In this document: piece by piece, positions 41,256 to 54,154 of the stretch
How the letters are laid out: each line of letters opens with the position of its first letter
Position numbering within the stretch: the stretch's first letter is position 1
Notes under the pieces: model-generated
Databases searched by the model: none
What the model saw: the letters and a program-made list of their open reading frames with translations, nothing else
What the model was told of the DNA's origin: nothing
Made by a program: the position numbers and the translations under genes
Source: Prosthecobacter fusiformis
Lineage (GTDB): Bacteria; Verrucomicrobiota; Verrucomicrobiia; Verrucomicrobiales; Verrucomicrobiaceae
Assembly: GCF_004364345.1 (NCBI RefSeq)
Contig: NZ_SOCA01000001.1
Location: 372,001 to 436,000, forward strand
Direction of reading: 5' to 3'
Length of the DNA: 64,000 nt

Positions 41256-41921
41256 ATGAAATATTTTTTCCTCAGCTACCTCTTTGTTGCCGCGATCATC
41301 GTCGCCGCATTTGGCTCTCGTGGCAGCAAGTCCGAATTGCCGCCCCTGGAAATCTTTCAGGACATGGATCACCAAGCCAAAGTGAAGTACCAGGCCCACA
41401 GTGACTTTTTCGCCGATGGACTCGGCGCACGCCGTCCTGTCAAAGGCACCGTACCTATTGGTTTCGAAGTCCCCGCCAAAGCTGCCTCGGCCCCTGACTT
41501 CAAGCCCCCGCAGTACGGCTTCGCCAATGGCCTGGACTATTACAGCACAGGTAAAATCGGCGATTATTACGGCGACGGCCTGCCCAAGGAAGTGACGCTG
41601 AACAAAGCCCTTCTTGAGCGCGGCGAGCGCCAGTACAACATCTATTGCGCCGTCTGCCACGCTGCCTCCGGCAATGGCAAGGGCATCACTTCGAAGTACG
41701 GCATCATGACCGCCTTCAATTTCCACCAGCCCGGCAGCACCGATCCCGCCAACGCTGGTGCCTACCGCGCAGACGGAGCCATTTACGATGTCATCACGAA
41801 CGGCAAAGGACTCATGGGTCCCTACGGTGGCAACATCATCGTTCAAGACCGCTGGGCCATCGTGGCCTACATCCGCGCCATGCAGGTGGCGGTGAAGGAA
41901 AACAACGTGTCCGTCCAGTAA
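41256..41921 (+). CDS. actE: Alternative complex III monoheme cytochrome c subunit (ActE)
   Basis: 221 residues. One N-terminal membrane helix (about 2-19) anchors a periplasmic cytochrome with a single heme site CAVCH (C131-H135). The upstream AHSDFFADGLGARRPVKGTV segment and the YGIMTAFNFHQ segment match ActE of alternative complex III, which carries electrons from quinol-oxidising subunits to the oxidase. It lacks the lipobox usual in ActE; anchoring is by the helix instead. It opens the locus, 33 bases after the palindrome, whereas in known operons ActA-ActD come first. Confidence 0.88.
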   Translation: MKYFFLSYLFVAAIIVAAFGSRGSKSELPPLEIFQDMDHQAKVKYQAHSDFFADGLGARRPVKGTVPIGFEVPAKAASAPDFKPPQYGFANGLDYYSTGKIGDYYGDGLPKEVTLNKALLERGERQYNIYCAVCHAASGNGKGITSKYGIMTAFNFHQPGSTDPANAGAYRADGAIYDVITNGKGLMGPYGGNIIVQDRWAIVAYIRAMQVAVKENNVSVQ

Positions 41922-41939: not shown

Positions 41940-43313
41940 ATGAGTCACCACGTCACATTCAATGATCTGCCTCCGGGCGGTGAGAAATTCGAAACCGCCA
42001 AGGGCAGCAAGCTCATCGGTGCCTTTGGGGCCACCGGTGCGGTTGGCCTCCTTGGCTCCGCCTATCTGTTCTTTACCCAGACGGATGTCTTTGCTTATAG
42101 CTGGCTGTTCGCCTTCTTCTTTGCCTTCACATTCGTGTGCGGCGGCTGCTTCTGGATTCTTCTCCATAGCGCTTCCAATTCAGGCTGGGGCGTTGCTGTC
42201 CGCCGTTTGTGGGAACAGTTGGCCAACATGGTCCTTCCTCTGGCTTTCCTTGGCCTTCCCCTTCTCGTTCCGCAGGTGCAGACACATCTTTACGAGTGGA
42301 TGAACCATCATCGTGAAGCGAAAACACAGCTTCACGCTGCTGATCATGGTGACTCCGCTCACAAGGCCGAAGCGACGGACGCCACTCACGCAGCCGATGC
42401 AGACCATCACGAAATGCACAGTGTGAAGGACGCCCTCCATCACATGTCCCTTTCCAATCCTCATCTTCACATCCTTGTGGAGAAATATGGGTATCTGAAT
42501 ATCAACGGCTGGTATCTCCGCTTCGCTTTCTACTTCTTCATCCTCTGGCACATCGCCCGCACCCTCCGCAAGAAGTCGGTAAAACAGGACGGAGATGGTG
42601 ACATCCAGCACACCATCAAATCCCGCACCTTCTCCTGCCGCTGGCTGCTTTTCTACGCTTTGACTGTCACCTTCGCCGCTGTGGATTGGCTGATGACCCT
42701 GGATTACTCCTGGTTCTCCACCATGTGGGGTGTTTACATCTTCGCCGGTTGCGCCTGGGCATCCATGGCCCTGACCATCCTTCTCGTCACTTGGCTCAAA
42801 GGCCTGGGCTACCTGAAACTGGTCGTCACACAAGAACATTACCACTTGATGGGTAAGCTGCTCTTCGCTTTCACGGTGTTCTGGGCATACATCGCCTTCA
42901 GCCAGTATTTCCTCATCTGGTACGCTAACATCACAGAAGAAACTCGCTTCTACCTCACCCGTAACACTGAAGGCTGGCGCTGGGTTTCCATCTTCATCGT
43001 CATCGGCCACTTCATCGGCCCCTTCGTTCTTCTCCTGTCCCAGCCCCGCAAAAAGAATCCGGCCGTCATCTCCCTCGTCTGCCTTTGGATTCTCTTCATG
43101 CACATGGTGGATATTTATTGGAACGTCATCCCTGAGCGTGGCCCTTCCCTCGGCATCGGCTGGTGGGTGGATGGTGCTTGGATCGGCGACATCGTTGCCC
43201 TCCTCGCTGTTGTCGGCACCTCCGGCTTCATCTTCCTCCGCAGCCTTTCCCGTTACAGCCTCTATCCCTGCCGCGACCCGCGCCTGCTTGAGTCCGCCAA
43301 CGTCATCAACTGA
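41940..43313 (+). CDS. actF: Alternative complex III subunit ActF, polytopic quinol-binding subunit
   Basis: 457-residue membrane protein with about ten helices, related to NrfD/PsrC. It has a hydrophilic loop from about 120 to 175 that is rich in His and Asp (ATHAADADHHEMHSVKD), longer than I expect in the family. VDWLMTLDYSWFSTMWGVY and the EERG/NVIPERGPSL segments are typical. In ACIII, ActF and ActC form the membrane core; here only ActF is encoded. ATG start 18 bases after actE. Confidence 0.88.
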   Translation: MSHHVTFNDLPPGGEKFETAKGSKLIGAFGATGAVGLLGSAYLFFTQTDVFAYSWLFAFFFAFTFVCGGCFWILLHSASNSGWGVAVRRLWEQLANMVLPLAFLGLPLLVPQVQTHLYEWMNHHREAKTQLHAADHGDSAHKAEATDATHAADADHHEMHSVKDALHHMSLSNPHLHILVEKYGYLNINGWYLRFAFYFFILWHIARTLRKKSVKQDGDGDIQHTIKSRTFSCRWLLFYALTVTFAAVDWLMTLDYSWFSTMWGVYIFAGCAWASMALTILLVTWLKGLGYLKLVVTQEHYHLMGKLLFAFTVFWAYIAFSQYFLIWYANITEETRFYLTRNTEGWRWVSIFIVIGHFIGPFVLLLSQPRKKNPAVISLVCLWILFMHMVDIYWNVIPERGPSLGIGWWVDGAWIGDIVALLAVVGTSGFIFLRSLSRYSLYPCRDPRLLESANVIN

Positions 43314-43321
43314 TTCCCTTC

Positions 43322-43798
43322 ATGTCACCGACCGTTCCATCTTCGAGAGCCGGAGCCACCTTTCTTTGGGTGCTGGCCGCGTTTGCGAGTTTCGCCGTCC
43401 TCTTTTACCTCATCCAGGTCACCTTTGCCACCCAGGGTGCCGTTGACCCGCGCATCCCCGACCGCCTAGCCAACAAGGAAGAAATCCTCAAGGCTCAAAG
43501 CGAGATCATCGCCAAGATGGGCCTCAATGACGGCAGTAAAAAAGCCGCCATTTTCGACAAAACGCTCGAGACCCTGAAGGCCAAACCCGAAGGCGTCAGC
43601 CCGCAGGTCGTTCCAGGCTCTCCCACACAGTTGAAACTGGCCGCTGCACCAGCCCCTGAAGCTGCGGCTCCCGCTCCAGCCCCTACACCGGAAGCTTCGA
43701 TTCCAGCCGCTGCTGCTCCTGAAGCACCTGCCGCTCCAGCTCCGGCTGCCCCAACCGCTCCCGCCGCCCCGGCACCCACCCCTGCTCCCGCGAACTGA
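43322..43798 (+). CDS. Small single-helix membrane protein with Ala/Pro tail
   Basis: 158 residues. One membrane helix (about 11-33, FLWVLAAFASFAVLFYLIQV) is followed by a charged segment and, from about 110, an Ala/Pro repeat-like low-complexity tail of about 50 residues. It starts 8 bases after actF and stops 18 bases before the CcoN homologue, so it is part of the same operon. It may be an accessory or linker subunit of the respiratory complex; I recognise no family. Confidence 0.65.
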   Translation: MSPTVPSSRAGATFLWVLAAFASFAVLFYLIQVTFATQGAVDPRIPDRLANKEEILKAQSEIIAKMGLNDGSKKAAIFDKTLETLKAKPEGVSPQVVPGSPTQLKLAAAPAPEAAAPAPAPTPEASIPAAAAPEAPAAPAPAAPTAPAAPAPTPAPAN

Positions 43799-43816
43799 TT
43801 TTTGCCCTTGGACCCT

Positions 43817-45295
43817 ATGCAGACCTCCCCAGCATCCACGGACACCCAGGCTGACAACCTTCGCCGCGCGGCGATTGACAAGTCGGTCAAAGGCCCGGTG
43901 CTCTTCCTCTTCCTGAACGGTGCCTTCTGGCTCATGGCCTCCACCATCCTTGGAGTCATCGCCGCCATTACCCAGTTCGCTCCTGATTTCCTCGGCCCTT
44001 GCAGCGTATTTCAATATGGCCGCATCCAGCCCACCCACATCAATGCTCTTGTTTACGGCTGGGGTGTCCAGGCAGGCCTTGGTGCCATGCTTTGGATCAT
44101 GGCACGGCGCTCTGGACAGGAACTCCGCAGTGGAAAAAGCATCCTCTATGTTGCGGCCATTTTCTGGAACATCGCTGTCACCATCGGCCTCGTTGCTATC
44201 CTTCTCGGCAAAAGCACCTCCATGCAGTGGCTGGAAATGCCCTCCTTCATCTGGCCCGTCCTGTTGATCTGCTTCCTCGCTTTTGCCTGGCCCATGGTAT
44301 TCATGTTTGGCCGCGCCTTCCGTCCTGAAGGATTCATGGTCAGCACTTGGTATATCCTCGCTGCCTGCTTCTGGTTCCCCTGGATCTTTGTCACCGCCAA
44401 CGTTGCCCTGCATTGCCTTCCTGGTCTGGGTGCTCTTGGCGCTGGTATCAATGCCTGGTATGTGCACACGGTCATCCTTCTCTTCTTTGCCCCTGTTGCC
44501 CTCGGTGCCGCTTATTACTTCATTCCTAAAATCACGGGTCAGCCCATCGCCAGTTCCCAGCTTTCCCAGATTGGTTTCTGGCTCCTGGCAGTTCTCGGTG
44601 GCTGGACGGGTATGCAACAATACATGGGCGGCCCTCTTCCCGCCTGGATGCCTGCCGTCGGCGCCGCCGCCAGCATGCTCCTTCTGATTCCCGTTGGTGT
44701 CGTCGGTCTCAACCATCACCTGACCACCCTGGGTAAGCACAGCATGGTCGCCTCCAGCCCGACTCTGCGCTTCGTTTTCTTCGGTGCTCTGTTCTATCCC
44801 GTCAGTGGTGCCATCCTGGCCCTGATCTCCAATTTCTCCACCGGTGCCGTCCTCCAGTTCACGCAGGCCTCCTACGGGTTCCAGATCGTCGCAGTCTATG
44901 GCTTCTTCAGCATGACCATCTTCGGTGCGATTTACTACATCGTGCCACGCCTCACCGGCTGTGAATGGCTCTCCGTCAGCCTTATCCGCAACCACTTCTG
45001 GTTCTCCGTTTACGGCATCGGTGCCATCGTCGTGACCAGCCTCGTCGCAGGTGCCCAGCAGGGCGGCGACCTCAACTCTCCAGAAATGTGGGACCAGGAC
45101 TTCATGCAGCTCGCTCTGAACCTTCGCCCTTACATCATCGCCCGCGCCATCGCCTGGGCCTTGATCACCTGGTCCAATGTTTGGTTCCTCATCCATCTCA
45201 TGCTCATGGTGGCCGGTCTTGGCCGCCGCAGCTCCTCCCCGACGCTGCTTGAACATGACCACGACGAAGCCCTTTCCCACGCCGCCCACGCATGA
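43817..45295 (+). CDS. CcoN homologue (cbb3 oxidase subunit I fold) lacking most metal ligands
   Basis: 492-residue polytopic protein clearly homologous to cbb3-oxidase subunit I. It keeps H74 (QPTHINALVYGW, low-spin heme ligand) and H217 (WYVH, copper ligand). The two histidines of the HH pair are Q267 and Q268 (GGWTGMQQYMG against YIWAGPHHLHY). The two helix-X histidines are F355 and I357 (YGFQIVAVYG against IGHVHSGALG), and the active-site Tyr is G261. Alignment is gap-free at both sites. It therefore cannot form a normal heme-copper centre; I infer a structural or electron-transfer role. ATG 43817 chosen; TTG 43802 is an alternative. Its last 4 bases overlap ccoO. Confidence 0.9.
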   Translation: MQTSPASTDTQADNLRRAAIDKSVKGPVLFLFLNGAFWLMASTILGVIAAITQFAPDFLGPCSVFQYGRIQPTHINALVYGWGVQAGLGAMLWIMARRSGQELRSGKSILYVAAIFWNIAVTIGLVAILLGKSTSMQWLEMPSFIWPVLLICFLAFAWPMVFMFGRAFRPEGFMVSTWYILAACFWFPWIFVTANVALHCLPGLGALGAGINAWYVHTVILLFFAPVALGAAYYFIPKITGQPIASSQLSQIGFWLLAVLGGWTGMQQYMGGPLPAWMPAVGAAASMLLLIPVGVVGLNHHLTTLGKHSMVASSPTLRFVFFGALFYPVSGAILALISNFSTGAVLQFTQASYGFQIVAVYGFFSMTIFGAIYYIVPRLTGCEWLSVSLIRNHFWFSVYGIGAIVVTSLVAGAQQGGDLNSPEMWDQDFMQLALNLRPYIIARAIAWALITWSNVWFLIHLMLMVAGLGRRSSSPTLLEHDHDEALSHAAHA

Positions 45296-45978
45296 GCCAG
45301 TTCCGCACGTTTATCCTCGCCCTCGTCGCCAGCTTCGGACTCCCCTGGCTGTGCCTGATCGTCATCCCGGCGGTCAAATATCAGGCACTCACCCAGGTAG
45401 CCTATGACAAGGACACCGATGGCATTGAAGGCCTCTATCCTCCCGCCCCCATCAACCGCCAGGGACAGCTCGTCTATGCCCGCGAAGGTTGTGTTCAGTG
45501 CCATACCCAGATGATCCGCCCGACCCAGCTCGCCCTGGATGGCTGGCGCAAAGGATGGGGCATGGACCAGGACGCACGTCCACCGGCCCCTGTCCGCTCC
45601 AACAACATGCGTGATTACCTCGGCGAGCCTTTCGCTTTCCTCGGTGTCCAGCGCAACGGTCCTGATCTTTCCAATTACGGCTGGCGCGCCCCTGAGCGTG
45701 CTCTCATCCATCAGATGCTCTATGCTCCCCGTACCCTTCACGACTGGTCCAACATGCCCGCCTTCACGCATCTCTACAAAGAGCGTCTGGCTCAAGGCCC
45801 TGTATCTTCCGTAGCCCTGAAGCTGCCGAAGAAGTTCCCTCTGAAAGAAGGTTATGAAGTCATCCCCACACCTGAAGCCGAAGCTCTCGTGGACTACCTG
45901 CTTTCCCTGAAAAAAGACTATCCCGTCCCTGGTGATCCCGCCGCCGTCGCAGCCGCCCCTGCTGCAGCCAAGAAATAA
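45292..45978 (+). CDS. ccoO: CcoO-like monoheme cytochrome c
   Basis: 228 residues. One N-terminal membrane helix (about 7-26) precedes a heme site CVQCH (C67-H71) in the context REGCVQCHTQMIRPT, diagnostic for CcoO of cbb3 oxidase. A Met in DWSNMPAF near 164 is the likely second axial ligand. The gene overlaps the CcoN homologue by 4 bases, as in ordinary cco operons. Unlike its membrane partner, the cytochrome looks intact, so it may still carry electrons. Ala-rich tail. Confidence 0.87.
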   Translation: MSQFRTFILALVASFGLPWLCLIVIPAVKYQALTQVAYDKDTDGIEGLYPPAPINRQGQLVYAREGCVQCHTQMIRPTQLALDGWRKGWGMDQDARPPAPVRSNNMRDYLGEPFAFLGVQRNGPDLSNYGWRAPERALIHQMLYAPRTLHDWSNMPAFTHLYKERLAQGPVSSVALKLPKKFPLKEGYEVIPTPEAEALVDYLLSLKKDYPVPGDPAAVAAAPAAAKK

Positions 45979-46005: not shown

Positions 46006-46728
46006 ATGAGCGCTCCTTCCTCCTTCCCCAATCCTGACAGCAATGATCTGGACCGCCTCCACGCCGCTGTGAAGCGTGAAAAGGCCGATCTGGAACCCGG
46101 TCGCGAACCCGCACCCATGTGGGTCCTCTTCCTGTTCATGATCATCGCCATCATAGCTGGTGGCCAGCTCGGCCCCATGGCTGGTGGCTTCAGCTTCGAT
46201 GTTAGCAACCCATTTGCAGCCAGCAACTTCGGCGATCCCCGTGGTAGCAACAAGGATCCAGGCGCAGGGGCCGATCCATTCCAGGTCGCCATGAAAAAAG
46301 GTGCCAGCGGTTATGCCGTCTGCGGCGGTTGCCACCAGGGCAGCGGCCTCGGCTTGGCCGGTCAGTATCCTCCTCTCGCAGGCTCCGAATGGGTCCTCGG
46401 CGGCACAGAGCGCCTCATCCGCGTCGTCCAGCACGGTCTCGTCGGTCAGGTCACCGTCAAAGGTCAGAACTACAATTTCCCTGGTGGGATGCAGGGCTTC
46501 GGAGCTGCCATGTCCGCTGGAGATCTAGCCAACGTCCTGACCTACATCCGCAATAACTGGGGTAACGAAGGAACCATGATCACAAAGGAAATGGTCGAAA
46601 AAGTCCGCGCTGAAGAAAAGCGCGCTACCCAGTGGACCATGGCCGACCTCGAAGCTTTCAAAGATAAAAACGTCCCCGGTGATATTCCAGCAGGCCCGGG
46701 CGCGACAGCCGCCGCTCCGGCCCCGTAA
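46006..46728 (+). CDS. Membrane-anchored monoheme cytochrome c (CcoP-like position)
   Basis: 240 residues. A hydrophilic N-terminal stretch (1-38) is followed by a membrane helix (about 39-58), then a cytochrome domain with CGGCH (C106-H110), and GMQGFGAAMSAGDLANVLTYI with the Met for the sixth ligand. It occupies the position of ccoP but has one heme rather than two. A charged helix and Ala/Pro tail follow. It probably passes electrons between the ActE/CcoO cytochromes and the aa3 oxidase. Confidence 0.83.
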   Translation: MSAPSSFPNPDSNDLDRLHAAVKREKADLEPGREPAPMWVLFLFMIIAIIAGGQLGPMAGGFSFDVSNPFAASNFGDPRGSNKDPGAGADPFQVAMKKGASGYAVCGGCHQGSGLGLAGQYPPLAGSEWVLGGTERLIRVVQHGLVGQVTVKGQNYNFPGGMQGFGAAMSAGDLANVLTYIRNNWGNEGTMITKEMVEKVRAEEKRATQWTMADLEAFKDKNVPGDIPAGPGATAAAPAP

Positions 46729-46973: not shown

Positions 46974-48929
46974 ATGAGCGCCGCCGCCACCACCCACGAT
47001 CACTCCCATGGAGCCGATCATGCGCATGATCACCACGAGCCGGGATTCTTCGGCAAGTATATCTTCTCCTGTGACCACAAGGTCATCGGCATCCAATATG
47101 GTCTCAGCGGCCTTCTCTTCCTTCTGCTCGGCTTCTTCCTGATGCTGCTCATGCGCTGGAGCATCGCCTTCCCTGGCCAGACCGTCCCGGGACTGCTGTT
47201 TGTAGAAAACCTCCCGCTCATTGGCCCCTTCTTCCACGATGCCATCGGCCGTTGGGCCCCAGGCGGCATCGTCAATGGCGAGCTCTACAACATGCTCGGT
47301 GCCATGCACGGCACCATCATGGTGTTCCTCGGCATTGTGCCTCTCGGTTTCGCTGGCTTTGTGAATTTCGTCATGCCACTTCAGATCGGCACGATCGATA
47401 TGGCGTTCCCGAAACTGAACATGTGGAGCTTCTGGCTCTTCTTCGTCAGCGGCGTCATGATGCTCGCCAGTTTCTTCGTTGGCACCGGCTCCGTCCAGAC
47501 CGGCTGGACAATGTATTCCCCCCTCGCCTCCACCACCACCCTCGCTGTCACCAACATTTGGATGCACGGCCACACTTGGTGGTTGATGGCCATGGTCTTC
47601 AATATCTCCGCCTCCCTTCTCGGCTCCGTGAACGTGATCACCACCGTGATCAACCTCCGCGCCAAGGGCATGACCTGGATGCGCATGCCCTTCTTCTGCT
47701 GGGCCATGTTCGTCACCAGCTTCCTGCTTCTGCTCGCCTTCCCTCCTCTTGAAGTCGCCGCCATCCTCCAGCTTGTGGATCGCGTCTTCGGTGCCAGCTT
47801 CTTCCTCCCGACCGGCCTCATGGAAGGCGGCCAGCACCTGGACATCTCCGGTGGTGGTTCTCCTCTCCTTTACCAGCATCTTTTCTGGTTCCTGGCCCAC
47901 CCTGAGGTGTACGTTCTCATTCTCCCCGCCTTCGCCATCCTGGCTGAAGTCATCCCGGCCAATACCCGCCGCCCTCTTTGGGGATACAAGTCCATGGTCT
48001 ATGCCGCCCTCACACTCGGCTTCCTCAGCTTCCTCGTCTGGGCTCACCACATGTACCTGACCGGCATGGGTACCATGATGTCCACTTACTTCCAGATCAC
48101 CACGGTGCTCATCTCCGTCCCTTCCGTGATCCTTCTGACAGGACTCATGATCTCCCTCTGGGGCGGCTCCATCCGCTTCACCCCACAGATGCTTTTCGCA
48201 TCCGCCTTTCTGCCCATGTTCGGTATCGGCGGTCTCACCGGTCTGCCTCTGGCCTTCACCTTCATTGACCTTGCCCTTCACGATACCTATTACGTCATCG
48301 GCCACTTCCATTACGTCGTTGCCCCCGGCACCATCTTTGCCCTCTTCGCAGGCATTTATCACTGGTATCCGAAGATCACAGGCCGCTACATGAGCGACTT
48401 CCTCGGCAAGCTCCACTTCTGGCCTTCTCTGCTGGGTATGAATCTGATCTTTGCTCCGATGTTCATTCAGGGCATGGGCGGCTTCCACCGTCGCTGGTAT
48501 GATGGCGGCAAATACTTCGAACAGACCAGCGGCGCTTCCAACTGGGTCACCAAGCTCACCTCGGACTTCTTCGGCATCTTCGGCATGGATGTCCCGAATA
48601 ACCTCCTCGGCCTGAACGTCCTCATGTCCGTCGGTGCATTCATCCTCGCCCTCGGCCAGGTGCCGTTCATCCTGAACGTCTTCCTCAGCATCAAAGGCGG
48701 CAAGAAGTCCAACAGCGACAACCCATGGAATTGCACCACGCTCGAGTGGGCCACTCCGACACCGCCTCCGCACGGCAACTTCCTGTTTGAACCCGTCGTC
48801 GTTCGTGGTCCCTACGAGTATAGCGTCCCCAACTGCACCCAGGACTTCCTGCCACAGTGGGAAAGCGAGCCCGGCAAAGCCGCTGTGGCCCCTGCTTCCA
48901 CCACGCCTGCCCCCGCCGCTCATCATTGA
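46974..48929 (+). CDS. ctaD: Cytochrome c oxidase subunit I, aa3 type
   Basis: 651-residue, about 12-helix catalytic subunit of a proton-pumping aa3-type oxidase. All ligands are present: H112 (heme a), H309 and cross-linked Y313 (WFLAHPEVY), H358-H359 (WAHHMYLTG), H444 and H446 (VIGHFHYV). A K-channel-type Lys is seen in WGYKSM. The first 22 residues are His-rich (THDHSHGADHAHDHH), a feature shared with other subunits here. An extended C-terminal tail of about 70 residues is rich in Pro. The gap of 245 bases before it contains no convincing gene. Confidence 0.96.
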   Translation: MSAAATTHDHSHGADHAHDHHEPGFFGKYIFSCDHKVIGIQYGLSGLLFLLLGFFLMLLMRWSIAFPGQTVPGLLFVENLPLIGPFFHDAIGRWAPGGIVNGELYNMLGAMHGTIMVFLGIVPLGFAGFVNFVMPLQIGTIDMAFPKLNMWSFWLFFVSGVMMLASFFVGTGSVQTGWTMYSPLASTTTLAVTNIWMHGHTWWLMAMVFNISASLLGSVNVITTVINLRAKGMTWMRMPFFCWAMFVTSFLLLLAFPPLEVAAILQLVDRVFGASFFLPTGLMEGGQHLDISGGGSPLLYQHLFWFLAHPEVYVLILPAFAILAEVIPANTRRPLWGYKSMVYAALTLGFLSFLVWAHHMYLTGMGTMMSTYFQITTVLISVPSVILLTGLMISLWGGSIRFTPQMLFASAFLPMFGIGGLTGLPLAFTFIDLALHDTYYVIGHFHYVVAPGTIFALFAGIYHWYPKITGRYMSDFLGKLHFWPSLLGMNLIFAPMFIQGMGGFHRRWYDGGKYFEQTSGASNWVTKLTSDFFGIFGMDVPNNLLGLNVLMSVGAFILALGQVPFILNVFLSIKGGKKSNSDNPWNCTTLEWATPTPPPHGNFLFEPVVVRGPYEYSVPNCTQDFLPQWESEPGKAAVAPASTTPAPAAHH

Positions 48930-48968: not shown

Positions 48969-50378
48969 ATGGATATCCCCTACACAGTCACCGCCCGCCC
49001 AGACACGGGCCTATACAATGCCAAAGTCGGCATCTGGCTTTTCCTCGCCTCTGAGGTGATGCTCTTCGGCGGCCTCTTTTCTTCTTACATCTTCCTGCGC
49101 GTCGGGGCCGACTACCACTGGCCTGTGCATGAGCTGAACGTCACCATGGGTTTCATCAATACCCTGGTGCTTATCTTCTCCTCCGTCACGGTCCTTCTGG
49201 CTTGGGCTAACCTCAAGTTGCGCAAAATTGGTAAATTCAGGCTCTACATGACCCTCACGGTGCTCTGCGCCATGACGTTCATGGTCATCAAGGCCTTCGA
49301 ATACAAATCCAAGTTTGAGCATTATGCCGTCAAGCTCACGGATGGCACCTTCCTCACCGGCCACCTTCCTCACGGCTACGAAATCACCTTTGGTGAAGCC
49401 ACCGATTTCACCATGACCATCGCAGGTGAAAACAAGGCCATTGATGCAGACCCAGCGGACTACATCCTTCCTTACATCGTCGGTGAAGCCCCCACCTTTA
49501 AGCTCGCTTCCGGTGAAGAACTCTCCCTGGATTCCTCCAGCTTCGGCGACTTCCAGAAAAAGACCGTCAAGGCTGCTGAAGACGCCCTCGAAAAACGACG
49601 TGCTGACCTCCGTGCCAAGGGCAAAGAGGCTGAAGCCAAAAAACTCAACATCGTCCCGGACACCACCGTCAAACTCACCGCCTCCCAGCCGATCACCATC
49701 AAGGTCAAACCTTCCAAAATTCTCGGCTATTCCGCATCCACCATCACCTTTGCTGACGGCACCACCGCCACCGGCAAACTCCTGGATGACAAAATGGTCC
49801 TAGAAGTGGACGGAGTCGATGCACGTTCTGTCCCCGATGCTGAAAACTCACTCGCCTGGAGCAGCAACTACCTCGGCGAGGGCTGGAAAAAAGCCTTTAT
49901 CGAAAACCGCGACCACGCCCAGGCTGAGTTCAAAGAAAAATATCCTTCTCGCGATCCTCAAAAGAGTGCAACCCACCAGAAGGAATCTTTCTATCTGCAT
50001 ATCAAATCCGCCACCCCTCCTGCAGCCCACGCTGAAGGCGAACACAAAGCGGAAGCCGCAGCCACAGAACATGGCGATGACCACGCTGGTCACGGTCACC
50101 ATCCTGAAGTGACCCTGGAGAAAAAAGACATCGCTTTTTACTCCAATTACACGCCAAAGCTGAACACCTATTACGCCATCTATTTCACCCTCACGGGTCT
50201 CCATGGCCTTCACGTCGTCGCCGGTGCTCTGGTCCTCACCTACTTCCTGCTTTTTGATGGCAAGATGCTTCGCAACGACCCTGAGCGCCTCGCCAACCGC
50301 GTCGAAGTCGGTGGTCTCTTCTGGCATTTTGTGGACTTGGTCTGGATCTTCCTGTTCCCTCTCCTTTATCTCCTTTAA
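48969..50378 (+). CDS. ctaE: Cytochrome c oxidase subunit III with a large soluble insertion
   Basis: 469 residues, over twice the usual about 200. The first three helices (about 21-45, 59-82, 91-110) and the last two (about 399-429, 449-468) are recognisable subunit III (LFLASEVMLFGGLFSSYIFL, TGLHGLHVVAGA, WHFVDLVWIFLFPLLY). Between them, residues about 118-393 form a soluble beta/helical domain (FADGTTATGKLLDDK, VKLTDGTFLTG), ending in a His-rich strip (about 354-378). Orientation relative to the membrane is not certain. The insertion is in frame and continuous; no intron or frameshift is indicated. Confidence 0.93.
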   Translation: MDIPYTVTARPDTGLYNAKVGIWLFLASEVMLFGGLFSSYIFLRVGADYHWPVHELNVTMGFINTLVLIFSSVTVLLAWANLKLRKIGKFRLYMTLTVLCAMTFMVIKAFEYKSKFEHYAVKLTDGTFLTGHLPHGYEITFGEATDFTMTIAGENKAIDADPADYILPYIVGEAPTFKLASGEELSLDSSSFGDFQKKTVKAAEDALEKRRADLRAKGKEAEAKKLNIVPDTTVKLTASQPITIKVKPSKILGYSASTITFADGTTATGKLLDDKMVLEVDGVDARSVPDAENSLAWSSNYLGEGWKKAFIENRDHAQAEFKEKYPSRDPQKSATHQKESFYLHIKSATPPAAHAEGEHKAEAAATEHGDDHAGHGHHPEVTLEKKDIAFYSNYTPKLNTYYAIYFTLTGLHGLHVVAGALVLTYFLLFDGKMLRNDPERLANRVEVGGLFWHFVDLVWIFLFPLLYLL

Positions 50379-50414: not shown

Positions 50415-50744
50415 ATGGCCGACAGTCACGAAGAAATTTACAAGTCGATCAAGAAGATCAAAATCATTGGCTGGGTGCTGGCCGTGTTTACTGGCATCAC
50501 AGTGGGCCTTTCCTATGTGGAGCTTCCCACCCATAGCATGAACATCCTGGTCGGCATGATCGTCGCCTCATTCAAGGCCGCCCTCGTCGCTCTAATTTTC
50601 ATGCACTTGAATCACGAGGCCAAGCTGATCTACAAAATCCTCGCCTTCACCGCAGCCTTCGCCATCGCTCTCTTCTTCCTGTTCGTATTCTCTGCACACG
50701 ATCCTCTCGTCTTCAGCGGATTTTACGACAACAACAACGAGTAA
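50415..50744 (+). CDS. ctaF: Cytochrome c oxidase subunit IV (caa3/COX4-prokaryotic type)
   Basis: 109 residues with three hydrophobic helices (about 18-35, 44-66, 72-93). The pattern FKAALVALIFMHLNHE is the family hallmark of prokaryotic COX IV, a small subunit that stabilises the oxidase. Typical length and position after subunit III. Confidence 0.88.
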   Translation: MADSHEEIYKSIKKIKIIGWVLAVFTGITVGLSYVELPTHSMNILVGMIVASFKAALVALIFMHLNHEAKLIYKILAFTAAFAIALFFLFVFSAHDPLVFSGFYDNNNE

Positions 50745-51198: not shown

Positions 51199-51996
51199 AT
51201 GAGCGTCTCTGACATCAATACCTGGATCGGCATCACCCAAAACGCCTCCGAGCACGGCGGTCTCGTGGACCACATGCTCGGCTTCGTCCACTGGTTCATG
51301 CTCGCCCTCTTCGTCGGCTGGTCCATCTTCCTCATCATCGCCTTCACTCGCTTCCGCCAGACGAAGAACGCCAAGGCTGACTACTACGGCGTGCGCGGCC
51401 ATGCCTCCACCCATATTGAAATCGGCGTCGTCGTCGTGGAAGCCATCCTCCTCCTCGGTTTCGCCTTCCCTCTCTGGTCCCGTCAGGCCGATGACTTCCC
51501 GACTAGCCCGGACACCATCAAAATGCGCGCCCTTGGCGAAAAATTCCTTTGGAATTTCCAGTATCCTGGCGATGACCTCATGCTCAGCACCTGGAACATG
51601 AAGGGCATCTCTCCAGCCAACGTCACCGGCCGTGACCTCCTGGACCCCAATGGCAAGGACGACTTCATCAACCCCGGCACGATGAAGCTTCCTGTCGGTC
51701 GCCCCGTCATTGTCGATGTCGCCAGCAAAGACGTCATTCATAACCTCGCCCTCGTCCCCATGCGCTCTGCACAGGATGCCATCCCTGGTGTCAAAGCACA
51801 CATGTGGTTCAAGCCAGTGAAAACCGGGACTTGGGACATCATTTGCGGTCAGCTTTGCGGCCCAGGCCACGCCCAGATGAAGGCCGTGCTTGAAGTCGTC
51901 GAAGGCAAAGAATTCGACGAATGGGCCAAGGAGCAGTCCGCCAGTGCCGCCGCCAAATCAGCCGCCCTCAATGCGCCTGTGGCTGCTGCTCAGTAA
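51199..51996 (+). CDS. ctaC: Cytochrome c oxidase subunit II with CuA site
   Basis: 265 residues. Two membrane helices (about 31-50 and 75-95) precede a cupredoxin domain with a complete CuA site: H181 (DVIHNLAL), C216, C220, H224 and M227 (CGQLCGPGHAQM). The usual Glu in CSELCG is Gln218, whose ligation is through the backbone. It receives electrons from cytochrome c and passes them to subunit I. There is no fused cytochrome domain, so it is aa3, not caa3, in the strict sense. Placed after subunits I, III and IV, an uncommon order. A strong terminator follows. Confidence 0.94.
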   Translation: MSVSDINTWIGITQNASEHGGLVDHMLGFVHWFMLALFVGWSIFLIIAFTRFRQTKNAKADYYGVRGHASTHIEIGVVVVEAILLLGFAFPLWSRQADDFPTSPDTIKMRALGEKFLWNFQYPGDDLMLSTWNMKGISPANVTGRDLLDPNGKDDFINPGTMKLPVGRPVIVDVASKDVIHNLALVPMRSAQDAIPGVKAHMWFKPVKTGTWDIICGQLCGPGHAQMKAVLEVVEGKEFDEWAKEQSASAAAKSAALNAPVAAAQ

Positions 51997-52165: not shown

Positions 52166-53197
52166 ATGACCTGGACCCGCTTCCAACGCCTCGCCCTCAT
52201 CGCCTTCATCACTGTGGAAGTGCTGATTTTTGTGGGTGCCGTCGTGCGCGCCACAGGCTCCGGTCTCGGGTGTCCCGACTGGCCTTTTTGCTACGGATGT
52301 GTCGTCCCGCCCACCAGTGCCGAGGACATCGACTTCACCAAGATCGATCTGGAAAAATTCCGCGCCAAAGCCGCCCGCCACGGCCGCGATCCCGCCACCA
52401 TTACCCCGGAAACCCTCAAGGCAGAGTTCGACCCCGTCGCCACCTGGGTGGAATACATCAACCGCCTCACCAGCCTCCCGGTGGGGTTCTCCATGCTGGC
52501 CCTACTCATCGCCTCCTTTGGCCAGATCCGGCTGCAGAGAAAACGCGTCTTCCTCGCCTCCGTGACAGCCTTTGCCCTCGTCCTCATCAACGCCTGGCTG
52601 GGTGCTCGTGTCGTCTTCAGTGGATTAAAACCCGGCATCATCACCCTTCACATGGCCTTAGCCATTTTGTTGCAGTGTGTCCTCGTTTACACAGCTTGGC
52701 GTGCCAATGACCGCCCCTGGACCCTTCCCTGGAAAAACTCCCTCCCCTCCTCCAGGCTGCGCTGGCTGGCCTGGGGCTTGTTCGCCCTCATCGTCATCGA
52801 AGGCGTCATGGGTTCACAAGTGCGTGAATTGACCGACCACCTCGCCCACACCCATGCTGGCGAACCCCGCAGCCAGTGGGTTATTGAGCTGGAGAATAGC
52901 TGGGTGTATCTCGTCCACCGAAGCTTTTCCTGGCTCATCCTCGTCGCCGGTATCGCATTCCTACAGCTCAGCCGCAAGCACCTCACCCGTGCAGGCTGGT
53001 TGGAATGGAGCATCATCAGCCTCATCTTCAGCCAGATGATCCTCGGCATCGTTCTCGCACATGTCGGCATCGTCGGCATTGCCCAGGTCCTTCACATCGG
53101 GCTCTCCTCCCTGCTCGTCAGTGCCCTCTTTCTCTGGCTGCTCGGTTCCTCTCGAAAGCCAGCGACTGTCTCTGGCATAACGCTGCCAGCGCGTTAA
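52166..53197 (+). CDS. ctaA: Heme A synthase, COX15/CtaA family
   Basis: 343 residues with about eight helices. It oxidises heme O to heme A. Three conserved heme-ligand histidines are present (ITLHMALAI, YLVHRSFSW, QVLHIGLSS). The first helix motif ExxHR reads E96-YI-N99-R100, so the expected His is Asn. A long loop after helix one (about 46-93) carries two Cys (C42, C45) plus C36. The Asn version occurs, as I recall, in some Bacteroidetes-like members, so loss of activity is not certain. The start is ATG 52166, 16 bases after a heptamer repeat. Confidence 0.92.
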   Translation: MTWTRFQRLALIAFITVEVLIFVGAVVRATGSGLGCPDWPFCYGCVVPPTSAEDIDFTKIDLEKFRAKAARHGRDPATITPETLKAEFDPVATWVEYINRLTSLPVGFSMLALLIASFGQIRLQRKRVFLASVTAFALVLINAWLGARVVFSGLKPGIITLHMALAILLQCVLVYTAWRANDRPWTLPWKNSLPSSRLRWLAWGLFALIVIEGVMGSQVRELTDHLAHTHAGEPRSQWVIELENSWVYLVHRSFSWLILVAGIAFLQLSRKHLTRAGWLEWSIISLIFSQMILGIVLAHVGIVGIAQVLHIGLSSLLVSALFLWLLGSSRKPATVSGITLPAR

Positions 53198-53209: not shown

Positions 53210-54154
53210 ATGTCTGATAGCCCCCTTCCCACCGCCGATCCCATCTCCAAAAACTGGAGCATGAACGATCTGCTGGTGCTGACGAAGTTCCGCCTCAGCG
53301 CCCTCGTCATCGTCTCCACCTTCGTCGCCTTCTGGTTGCGGGCAGGCACATCGTTAGACGGCTGGCTGCTTTTCCACACCCTCCTGGGCAGCAGCCTCGC
53401 CGCCTTCGGAGCCGCCGTCTTCAACCAGCTCATGGAGATCGAGCCGGATTCCCGCATGACCCGCACGGCGGATCGTCCCCTGCCCTCTGGCCGAATCAGC
53501 CCCAGCGCTGCCTTCGCCATCGGCTGGCTGCTCAGCGCCTTCGCTCTCATTCACCTCATGGCCAAGGTGAACTTTGAAGCCGCCGCCCTCACCGCCCTCA
53601 CCCTGGCCACCTATCTTTTCATCTACACCCCGCTGAAAAGACAATCCCCCACCAACACCCTCGTCGGAGCCGTTTCCGGTGCCCTTCCCCCGCTCATCGG
53701 TTGGGCCGGTGCAGCAGGTAAGCTGCCCGGGGATGAAGCCTATGTCCGCTGGGAATTGCTGCTGGAACCCGGTGCCATCTACCTCTTTATCCTCCTCTTC
53801 CTCTGGCAACTCCCCCACTTCCTCGCCATCAACTGGATGTATCGGGATGAATACCGCCGGGGCGGCTTCATCATGCTCGCCAACGATGACGAAGCCGGAG
53901 TACGCACCTCCAAGCACGCCCTGGCTTATTCCATCGCCACCCTGCTGCTCATGTTTTACCCCGTCTTCATGGGCCTGGTCATCACCTGGATCTTTCTCCC
54001 CCTCGCCCTCGCCCTCGCCGGCTGGCTCTGCAAACTCGCCCTCGACTTTCAAAAGAACCCGGAGCGCCCCACCGCCCGTAAACTCTTCCTCTGCACCCTC
54101 ATCTATCTCCCCGCCATCTTCCTCATCACCTCCCTCGCCTGGAAGCGCGCCTAA
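53210..54154 (+). CDS. ctaB: Protoheme IX farnesyltransferase (heme O synthase)
   Basis: 314-residue UbiA-superfamily enzyme with about nine helices that attaches farnesyl to heme B. The polyprenyl-diphosphate site is complete: NQLMEIEPDSRMTRTADRPL, with the Asp-rich Nx3Ex3D-like order, and LANDDEAGVR near 225. It starts 12 bases after ctaA, giving a heme O then heme A pair for the aa3 oxidase. Confidence 0.95.
   Translation: MSDSPLPTADPISKNWSMNDLLVLTKFRLSALVIVSTFVAFWLRAGTSLDGWLLFHTLLGSSLAAFGAAVFNQLMEIEPDSRMTRTADRPLPSGRISPSAAFAIGWLLSAFALIHLMAKVNFEAAALTALTLATYLFIYTPLKRQSPTNTLVGAVSGALPPLIGWAGAAGKLPGDEAYVRWELLLEPGAIYLFILLFLWQLPHFLAINWMYRDEYRRGGFIMLANDDEAGVRTSKHALAYSIATLLLMFYPVFMGLVITWIFLPLALALAGWLCKLALDFQKNPERPTARKLFLCTLIYLPAIFLITSLAWKRA

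Follow-up and report, generated by a model that had tools for sequence, protein, structure and literature searches.

Among the described respiratory systems one of the closest to the present locus is a C-type oxidase linked to ACIII, which has been noted for Opitutaceae and for verrucomicrobial methanotrophs (PMC8498564, citing Refojo 2010). According to the accessible text of the sources, in these methanotrophs the "cbb3-type" oxidase is placed directly beside ACIII (PMC6688271 and PMC8498564; PMC11102522 for one strain), is listed as one of three oxidase types (PMC10205796), and is said to fit a high O2 affinity in this position (PMC6688271); one methanotroph MAG was reported without cbb3 (PMC8170126). 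In the haloalkaliphile Verruconatronum, as far as the accessible part of the report describes it, three genes designated caa3 (2) come immediately after ActABCDEF, with cbb3 encoded separately (PMC13274419), and these three genes could be a set of CcoN homologue, CcoO and cytC of the kind described below. In the open-licence literature, to the extent of its accessible text and with most subscription journals outside this scope, no description of ligand loss in an ACIII-linked CcoN was found.

The window, i.e. the whole 64,000-nt stretch of DNA analysed here, to which all coordinates refer unless another locus is named, carries such a set of genes in the 5' to 3' order ActE-ActF-small membrane protein-CcoN*-CcoO-cytC-CtaDEFC, then CtaA-like and CtaB-like, where CcoN* designates a ligand-poor CcoN homologue:

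41256-41921, forward strand: ActE-like monoheme cytochrome c of 221 aa, preceding ActF (CxxCH, axial Met187; Pfam Cytochrome_CBB3, E 2.2e-11).
41940-43313, forward strand: ActF, the ACIII membrane subunit, 457 aa (phmmer against PDB, 6f0k_F, E 3.1e-54, and 6btm_F, E 2.5e-34; no match in Pfam or NCBIfam).
43322-43798, forward strand: small membrane protein of 158 aa with a Pro/Ala-rich tail, recognized by its position and by its variant in the f2 group of loci (Pfam and NCBIfam searches without match).
43817-45295, forward strand: CcoN*, a CcoN-fold subunit without most heme/copper ligands (H74 and H217 kept; G261, Q267, Q268, F355, I357).
45292-45978, forward strand: CcoO, membrane-anchored monoheme cytochrome c (CxxCH, axial Met155; Pfam FixO, PF02433, 61.1 bits with a cut-off of 29.6; PDB 8smr_F, E 1.9e-12).
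46006-46728, forward strand: cytC, monoheme cytochrome c (axial Met162; Pfam Cytochrom_C, E 4.6e-9).
46974-48929, forward strand: CtaD, A-type cytochrome c oxidase subunit I (phmmer, 1m56_A, E 8.3e-113).
48969-50378, forward strand: CtaE, subunit III, 469 aa with a large insertion (Pfam COX3 in two stretches).
50415-50744, forward strand: CtaF, subunit IV (NCBIfam TIGR02229, 43.2 bits, cut-off 37.25).
51199-51996, forward strand: CtaC, subunit II (Pfam COX2; CuA motif CGQLCGPGHAQM).
52166-53197, forward strand: CtaA-like gene, which we take to be heme A synthase (position conserved in relatives).
53210-54154, forward strand: CtaB-like gene, presumably heme O synthase (position conserved in relatives).

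The CcoN* frame is an intact ORF that opens with ATG at 43817, encodes 492 aa and closes with a stop ending at 45295. Its only Pfam match is COX1 (PF00115; 158.6 bits, cut-off 34.8), and phmmer against the PDB aligned it to the CcoN chain 3mk7_A (E 6.9e-27) with no gap at the ligand sites, which bears out the gap-free ligand reading of the first-pass annotation. At the seven catalytic positions the canonical series is H, H, Y, H, H, H, and H, and CcoN* reads H74, H217, G261, Q267, Q268, F355, and I357; in this alignment four of the six heme/copper His and the active-site Tyr are lost. When each canonical His is assigned to its metal as we take it to be in the cbb3 literature, the low-spin heme b is left with one ligand of two (H74, whose helix X partner is I357), the high-spin heme b3 has F355 instead of its His, the CuB triad retains one His of three (H217, the others being Q267 and Q268), and the helix VII active-site Tyr is replaced by G261. 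All five canonical CcoN-CcoO fusions examined (L163-L167) possess H or Y at the seven positions, and one of them (L163), complete in all seven residues, is encoded by the window's own genome.

With 119.8 bits CcoN* remains under the cut-off of the NCBIfam ccoN model (TIGR00780, 583.15), which was also missed by two tested ligand-complete relatives (225 and 235 bits), and judged by this score it is a divergent CcoN. The expectation that the fold had outlasted the ligands was confirmed when the structure was modelled: the AlphaFold2 model, for which a 54-row alignment was the input, reached a mean pLDDT of 89.3 and a pTM of 0.89 and recovered the CcoN fold, and the best seven Foldseek matches in the PDB were all CcoN (TM 0.84-0.86 by query length; 0.85 to 3mk7), which together with PF00115 identifies the 12-helix fold of C-type heme-copper oxidases. 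A NorB-like function was rejected, since NorB stood below CcoN in the fold search and the His positions common to both are those lost. An antisense ORF of 607 codons (43466-45289, minus strand) lies over CcoN* and is probably a high-GC shadow of the coding frame.

The neighbours of CcoN* in the window retain their own cofactor sites. CcoO was described earlier as intact, and the FixO match, CxxCH, and Met155 agree with its assignment to the CcoO/FixO family, its score being under the TIGR00781 cut-off (56.5 and 200.65 bits, respectively). CtaD is likewise under the cut-off of TIGR02891 (537.6 and 670.75 bits) and retains the HPEVY, WAHHMY, and HDTYYVxxHFHY ligand motifs; as these heme/copper motifs and the CuA motif of CtaC are kept, the A-type aa3 oxidase CtaDEFC of the window looks functional. 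The insertion of CtaE is hydrophilic, comprises about 200 residues, and is situated between transmembrane parts; in L151, L152, L155, and L161 CtaE has 263 aa.

The ACIII gene set ActA-ActF of this genome is divided between contigs, ActE and ActF being in the window. A search placed ActB on another contig (C6:27928-31176), its sequence being 64% identical to that of the L042 homologue. It is preceded by a 5-heme ORF and followed by two ORFs in ActC/ActD order, which by position and resemblance only are the likely ActA, ActC, and ActD (ActABCD, L195 5096-11317). In 90 of 118 loci ActB is in the same stretch, the 28 loci without it including those shortened by contig ends, and in comparison with these its place elsewhere in the window genome suggests that in the lineage of the window the ACIII operon came apart. 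ActB is also absent from about 9 kb upstream in L006-L008, L011-L013, L039, L045, L088, and L089. The first-pass annotation had located CcoN* "inside an aa3 operon", which is right as far as complete aa3 genes adjoin it and too narrow for what is a larger ACIII-CcoNO-cytC-aa3 superoperon.

The distribution of the intact and degenerate forms was followed in a draw of 288 Verrucomicrobiota genomes, 91 of which had a match, and ACIII-linked genes were taken from 64, the window's excluded. A separate genome scan with peptides of the window protein gave 54 loci; as these lean to close relatives, the split between the two forms is restricted to the draw, where the full set of seven residues is retained by 21 of the 64 ACIII-linked homologues (L104-L124) and incomplete in the other 43. 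ActE, ActF, and CcoO with its CxxCH are in the same stretch at all 64 loci, and cytC at all 43 degenerate and 19 of the 21 intact ones. The 64 loci, 52 of the 54 scan loci, and the window, minus one duplicate, left 116 distinct rows in which every column is covered, 95 of them degenerate and 21 intact. Excluded were L050 and L055 (contig ends, columns incomplete), L090 (the same protein as L056), L162 (a 346 aa fragment from genome G078), and L148-L150, L153, L154, and L156-L160, which keep the seven residues and have no ACIII link. In this last set L148-L150, L153, L154, and L157-L159 belong to another divergent, ligand-complete CcoN group, which is situated outside ACIII beside a 7-heme protein and CcoO.

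Neither the Tyr nor the full CuB triad is kept in any of the 95 degenerate rows, a His is aligned at the b3 position in a single one (L143, a long branch), and the low-spin heme pair is kept in two (L100 and L103). Of the six His none is left in 13 rows, one in 32, two in 37, and three in 13; by single positions, H74 is present in 65 rows, H217 in 52, and H268 in 24. In L100 (9188-10675) and L103 (1267-2754) both ligands of the low-spin heme b are kept and there is no b3/CuB site, and the CcoN* of these two loci is possibly a heme-b electron-transfer intermediate.

The 83 rows of the phylogenetic tree, in which the seven ligand columns were masked, comprise 54 degenerate and 29 ligand-complete ones; the trees include 12 of the 54 scan loci, and L149, L152, L153, and L155-L160 were also left out of the 83-row tree. 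At least three state changes were obtained: one for the clade of the window, the f2 group, the methanotrophs, and L100/L103, one for L125, whose position is inside a group of intact genes (97/85), and one for a clade of 19 rows. A single clade of all degenerate rows was rejected (p-AU 3.2e-5; p-AU 0.017 without L125). Change counts alone give no direction, and loss is the sensible one given that every outgroup row is intact, while the long branches in the set (L128, L141-L143, and L147) make the exact placements less sure. According to this tree the ligands were lost several separate times in the relatives. The ligand loss itself had been seen in the first reading, and its ACIII context and its scale had been overlooked.

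The intact form seems to be an enzyme in its own right. Eight genomes were searched for PF00115 proteins, and in G001 (L122) and G146 (L117), both nearly complete, the intact ACIII-linked CcoN was the only one found, so that it very probably serves these two as the working oxidase of the superfamily. G001 and G146 are small genomes. A match to CtaD (best E <=1e-82 in each genome with a match) was present in all 44 genomes that carry the degenerate gene and in 17 of the 21 that carry the intact one, counts that are uncorrected for kinship; the four genomes without CtaD all carry the intact gene, and G078, which has the fragment only, also has a CtaD match. Of the 43 degenerate loci 19 have CtaD in the same stretch, as has one of the 21 intact loci (again uncorrected for kinship); the other 24 degenerate loci show none within the roughly 9 kb taken on either side, a count that includes loci at contig ends. 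The explanation of ligand loss by a newly adjacent aa3 is only partly supported, these 24 loci and L111, where CtaD adjoins an intact CcoN, being contrary to it.

Five genomes of the f4 group are taken as verrucomicrobial methanotrophs since particulate methane monooxygenase genes (pmoA) are present in all five; pmoA was found in none of three other genomes searched. Each of them has ActE, ActF, CcoN*, CcoO, cytC, and CtaDEFC in that order; in L161 ActF and CcoN* are separated by two extra CxxCH ORFs, and the stretch lacks ActB. Four of the five CcoN* have the catalytic string SESSHFV and the fifth has ADAAHQT, which leaves one His of six, at CuB, and no heme ligands; in the profile comparison of the methanotroph and intact sets the ligand columns were aligned, and the model of the L155 protein (pLDDT 85) had a TM of 0.83 to 3mk7. 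No further CcoN was found in the five genomes, where the other PF00115 proteins are two aa3-like ones per genome, one NorB (identified in one genome tested), and one or two weaker matches, perhaps ba3-like. If the published methanotroph "cbb3" genes are the CcoN* copies described here, the oxidase assignment needs correction.

As the fold is kept, the ligands are gone, the gene is under purifying selection, and CcoO, cytC, and aa3 are retained together with it, CcoN* is almost certainly non-catalytic, and the earlier proposal of selection for a non-catalytic role is supported by the fold, the low dN/dS, the co-retained CcoO and monoheme cytochrome, and the adjacent aa3. We regard it as probable that CcoN* is an ex-catalytic subunit of a C-type oxidase, now serving as a scaffold for CcoO (and cytC) on an ACIII that feeds aa3. 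Its ancestor would have been catalytically active as part of a C-type (cbb3-like) oxidase that worked with ACIII in Verrucomicrobiota. Several lineages, each with an A-type oxidase in the sample, would have lost first the b3/CuB site and next the low-spin heme site, and the twelve-helix core, presumably free of bound heme, would have been retained after ligand loss as a membrane scaffold that still carries CcoO, and cytC with CcoO, on ACIII in a physical complex. Electrons would then pass from menaquinol through the ACIII hemes to CcoO and/or cytC, and further to the CuA of aa3 and to O2. A route through ActE is not assured, since, by the accessible text of a study on Flavobacterium johnsoniae (PMC8552683), electrons reach aa3 in that species without any need for ActE.

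The role of CcoO in this scheme depends on its heme, and here a second reading has to be weighed, which we consider unlikely: CcoN* would be an assembly or docking adaptor joining ACIII to aa3 itself, with CcoO as a passenger whose heme is irrelevant. All 21 intact rows have the axial Met of CcoO, but it is missing from 16 of the 95 degenerate-lineage rows (a set that differs from the 95 degenerate CcoN rows in counting L056 and L090 of one genome twice), where the position is Cys in all nine f2 rows (L093-L099, L101, and L102), Ala in L056/L090, and H, K, or R in L133, L138, L139, L140, and L146. The axial Met of ActE and that of cytC are unaffected (113 of 113 rows each), and this pattern, as well as the more frequent presence of CtaD at degenerate than at intact loci, favours an adaptor. 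However, all 116 aligned rows of CcoO have the CxxCH, 79 of the 95 also have the Met, and the 24 degenerate loci with no CtaD in the stretch speak against an adaptor between ACIII and aa3. Since the axial Met is gone in 16 rows, the CcoO heme is no obligatory wire everywhere; the data argue for a maintained high-potential c-heme chain in which the CcoO heme is not always a required link. Thus the electron wire through CcoO proposed in the first-pass annotation is compatible with the window, where Met155 is present, and does not hold in general: CcoO can be such an obligatory wire in some lineages at most. The other role suggested there for CcoN*, a quinone site, is a conjecture.

A heme c with His/Cys ligation has a much lower potential, and the replacement of Met by Cys in the f2 CcoO would give such a heme. 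At seven of the nine f2 loci (L093-L099) the slot of the small membrane protein, between ActF and CcoN*, is occupied by a longer protein (about 260 aa) that has a cytochrome c domain and motif, and L142 shows the like.

The scaffold reading is also confronted with the residues that did not drift. H74 is kept in 53 of 53 and H217 in 48 of 53 Verrucomicrobiaceae-like rows, so something might still be bound, and together with Q267 (52 of 53) and the low-spin heme pair of L100/L103 this speaks for a CcoN* that holds a heme or metal non-canonically (e.g., at H74 or at H217/Q267) in an electron-transfer or sensing role. Against this, in the same rows position 357 is I, V, T, M, or L, and position 268 is K in 25, H in 13, R in 10, T in 2, A in 2, and Q in 1; position 74 is F in four marine rows and A, Q, S, or others elsewhere; and at position 347 the canonical and intact groups always have H, whereas Q stands there in 96% of one degenerate group and 88% of another. 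On this evidence a non-canonical cofactor appears very unlikely. The variation at position 268 also excludes a fixed QQ motif: a search of relatives for the same QQ had been proposed, and the motif turned out to be a local state, with Q267 nearly fixed and 268 drifting, and even the nearest relatives of the window (L088 and L089) read Q-H at 267-268.

Slow decay, in which a pseudo-oxidase heading for loss is kept only through translational coupling to CcoO, would be in line with the 4 bp overlap between the ccoN* stop and the ccoO start and with the faster divergence of CcoN* than of intact CcoN. Relative to ActE, ActF, and cytC, this divergence is 0.73 for CcoN in the intact group and 0.97 in 14 Verrucomicrobiales, 1.34 in 17 f5 rows, and 1.40 in the methanotrophs (10 pairs) for CcoN*, which points to a protein that is constrained yet partly relaxed in comparison with the enzyme. 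Decay is nevertheless hardly credible in view of a CcoN* dN/dS of 0.032-0.095 versus five relatives, with synonymous sites partly saturated (dS 0.7-1.4); versus L088 it is 0.047, as compared with 0.043 for CtaD and 0.047-0.111 for nine other compared genes. Frames of 461-528 aa are open at the degenerate loci not cut by contig ends, and the residues fixed in the intact group are split two ways, the ligands and some of their neighbours drifting and others being invariant (W38, R97, W189, W214, Y234, K238, P275, Y373, R378, H393, and others in 54 rows of alignment A1). The dN/dS comparison proposed earlier as a check for constraint therefore indicates strong purifying selection, the value of about 0.05 being as low as that of the ligand-complete CtaD, and a CcoN* pseudogene is ruled out by it. 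Finally, a sequencing or assembly error or misaligned ligands can be neglected, as 95 distinct rows carry non-ligand residues at the catalytic sites, the PDB alignment is gap-free there, and the profile-profile comparison of the intact and methanotroph sets matched the ligand columns with probability 100.

A wider generalization, which we hold to be evenly balanced between true and false, is that takeover by an A-type oxidase repeatedly turned the ACIII oxidase into an obligatory cofactor-free scaffold, resulting in an undescribed ACIII/pseudo-cbb3/cytochrome c/aa3 chain, and that the methanotroph "cbb3" is no oxidase. If so, several Verrucomicrobiota lineages, methanotrophs included, would respire through this chain. 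A heme-copper oxidase subunit I is normally taken as proof of O2/NO reduction, while here many retained homologues are devoid of the residues needed, and annotation can miscount them as high-affinity cbb3 oxidases. The replicated natural losses, with intact sisters, a putative low-spin-only intermediate, and independent dead lineages, provide a test system for the transition from enzyme to scaffold, and the CcoN* system gives a handle on how ACIII passes electrons to its oxidase.

In comparison with known systems, CcoN* shares the whole fold and the downstream partner CcoO with the known CcoN (3mk7, 8smr, and 6xkw) and is 20-22% identical to the CcoN of the seven best structural matches; unlike these enzymes it is without four of the six metal ligands and the Tyr. 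The ACIII-aa3 of Flavobacterium johnsoniae (6btm) and the ACIII of Rhodothermus marinus (6f0k) share with the window the ActF homologue and the A-type oxidase partner, and we know of no CcoN/CcoO module in either complex. ActB of ACIII is a homologue of molybdoenzymes without the molybdenum cofactor and is a precedent, within the same complex, for a redox module retained after the loss of its catalytic cofactor, although its fold and family differ from those of CcoN*. The direct homologue is the ACIII-linked C-type oxidase of Verrucomicrobiota, which has the same ActEF-CcoN-CcoO-cytC order; its ligand loss is unmentioned in the accessible part of PMC8498564, whereas 43 of the 64 loci and the window are ligand-poor.
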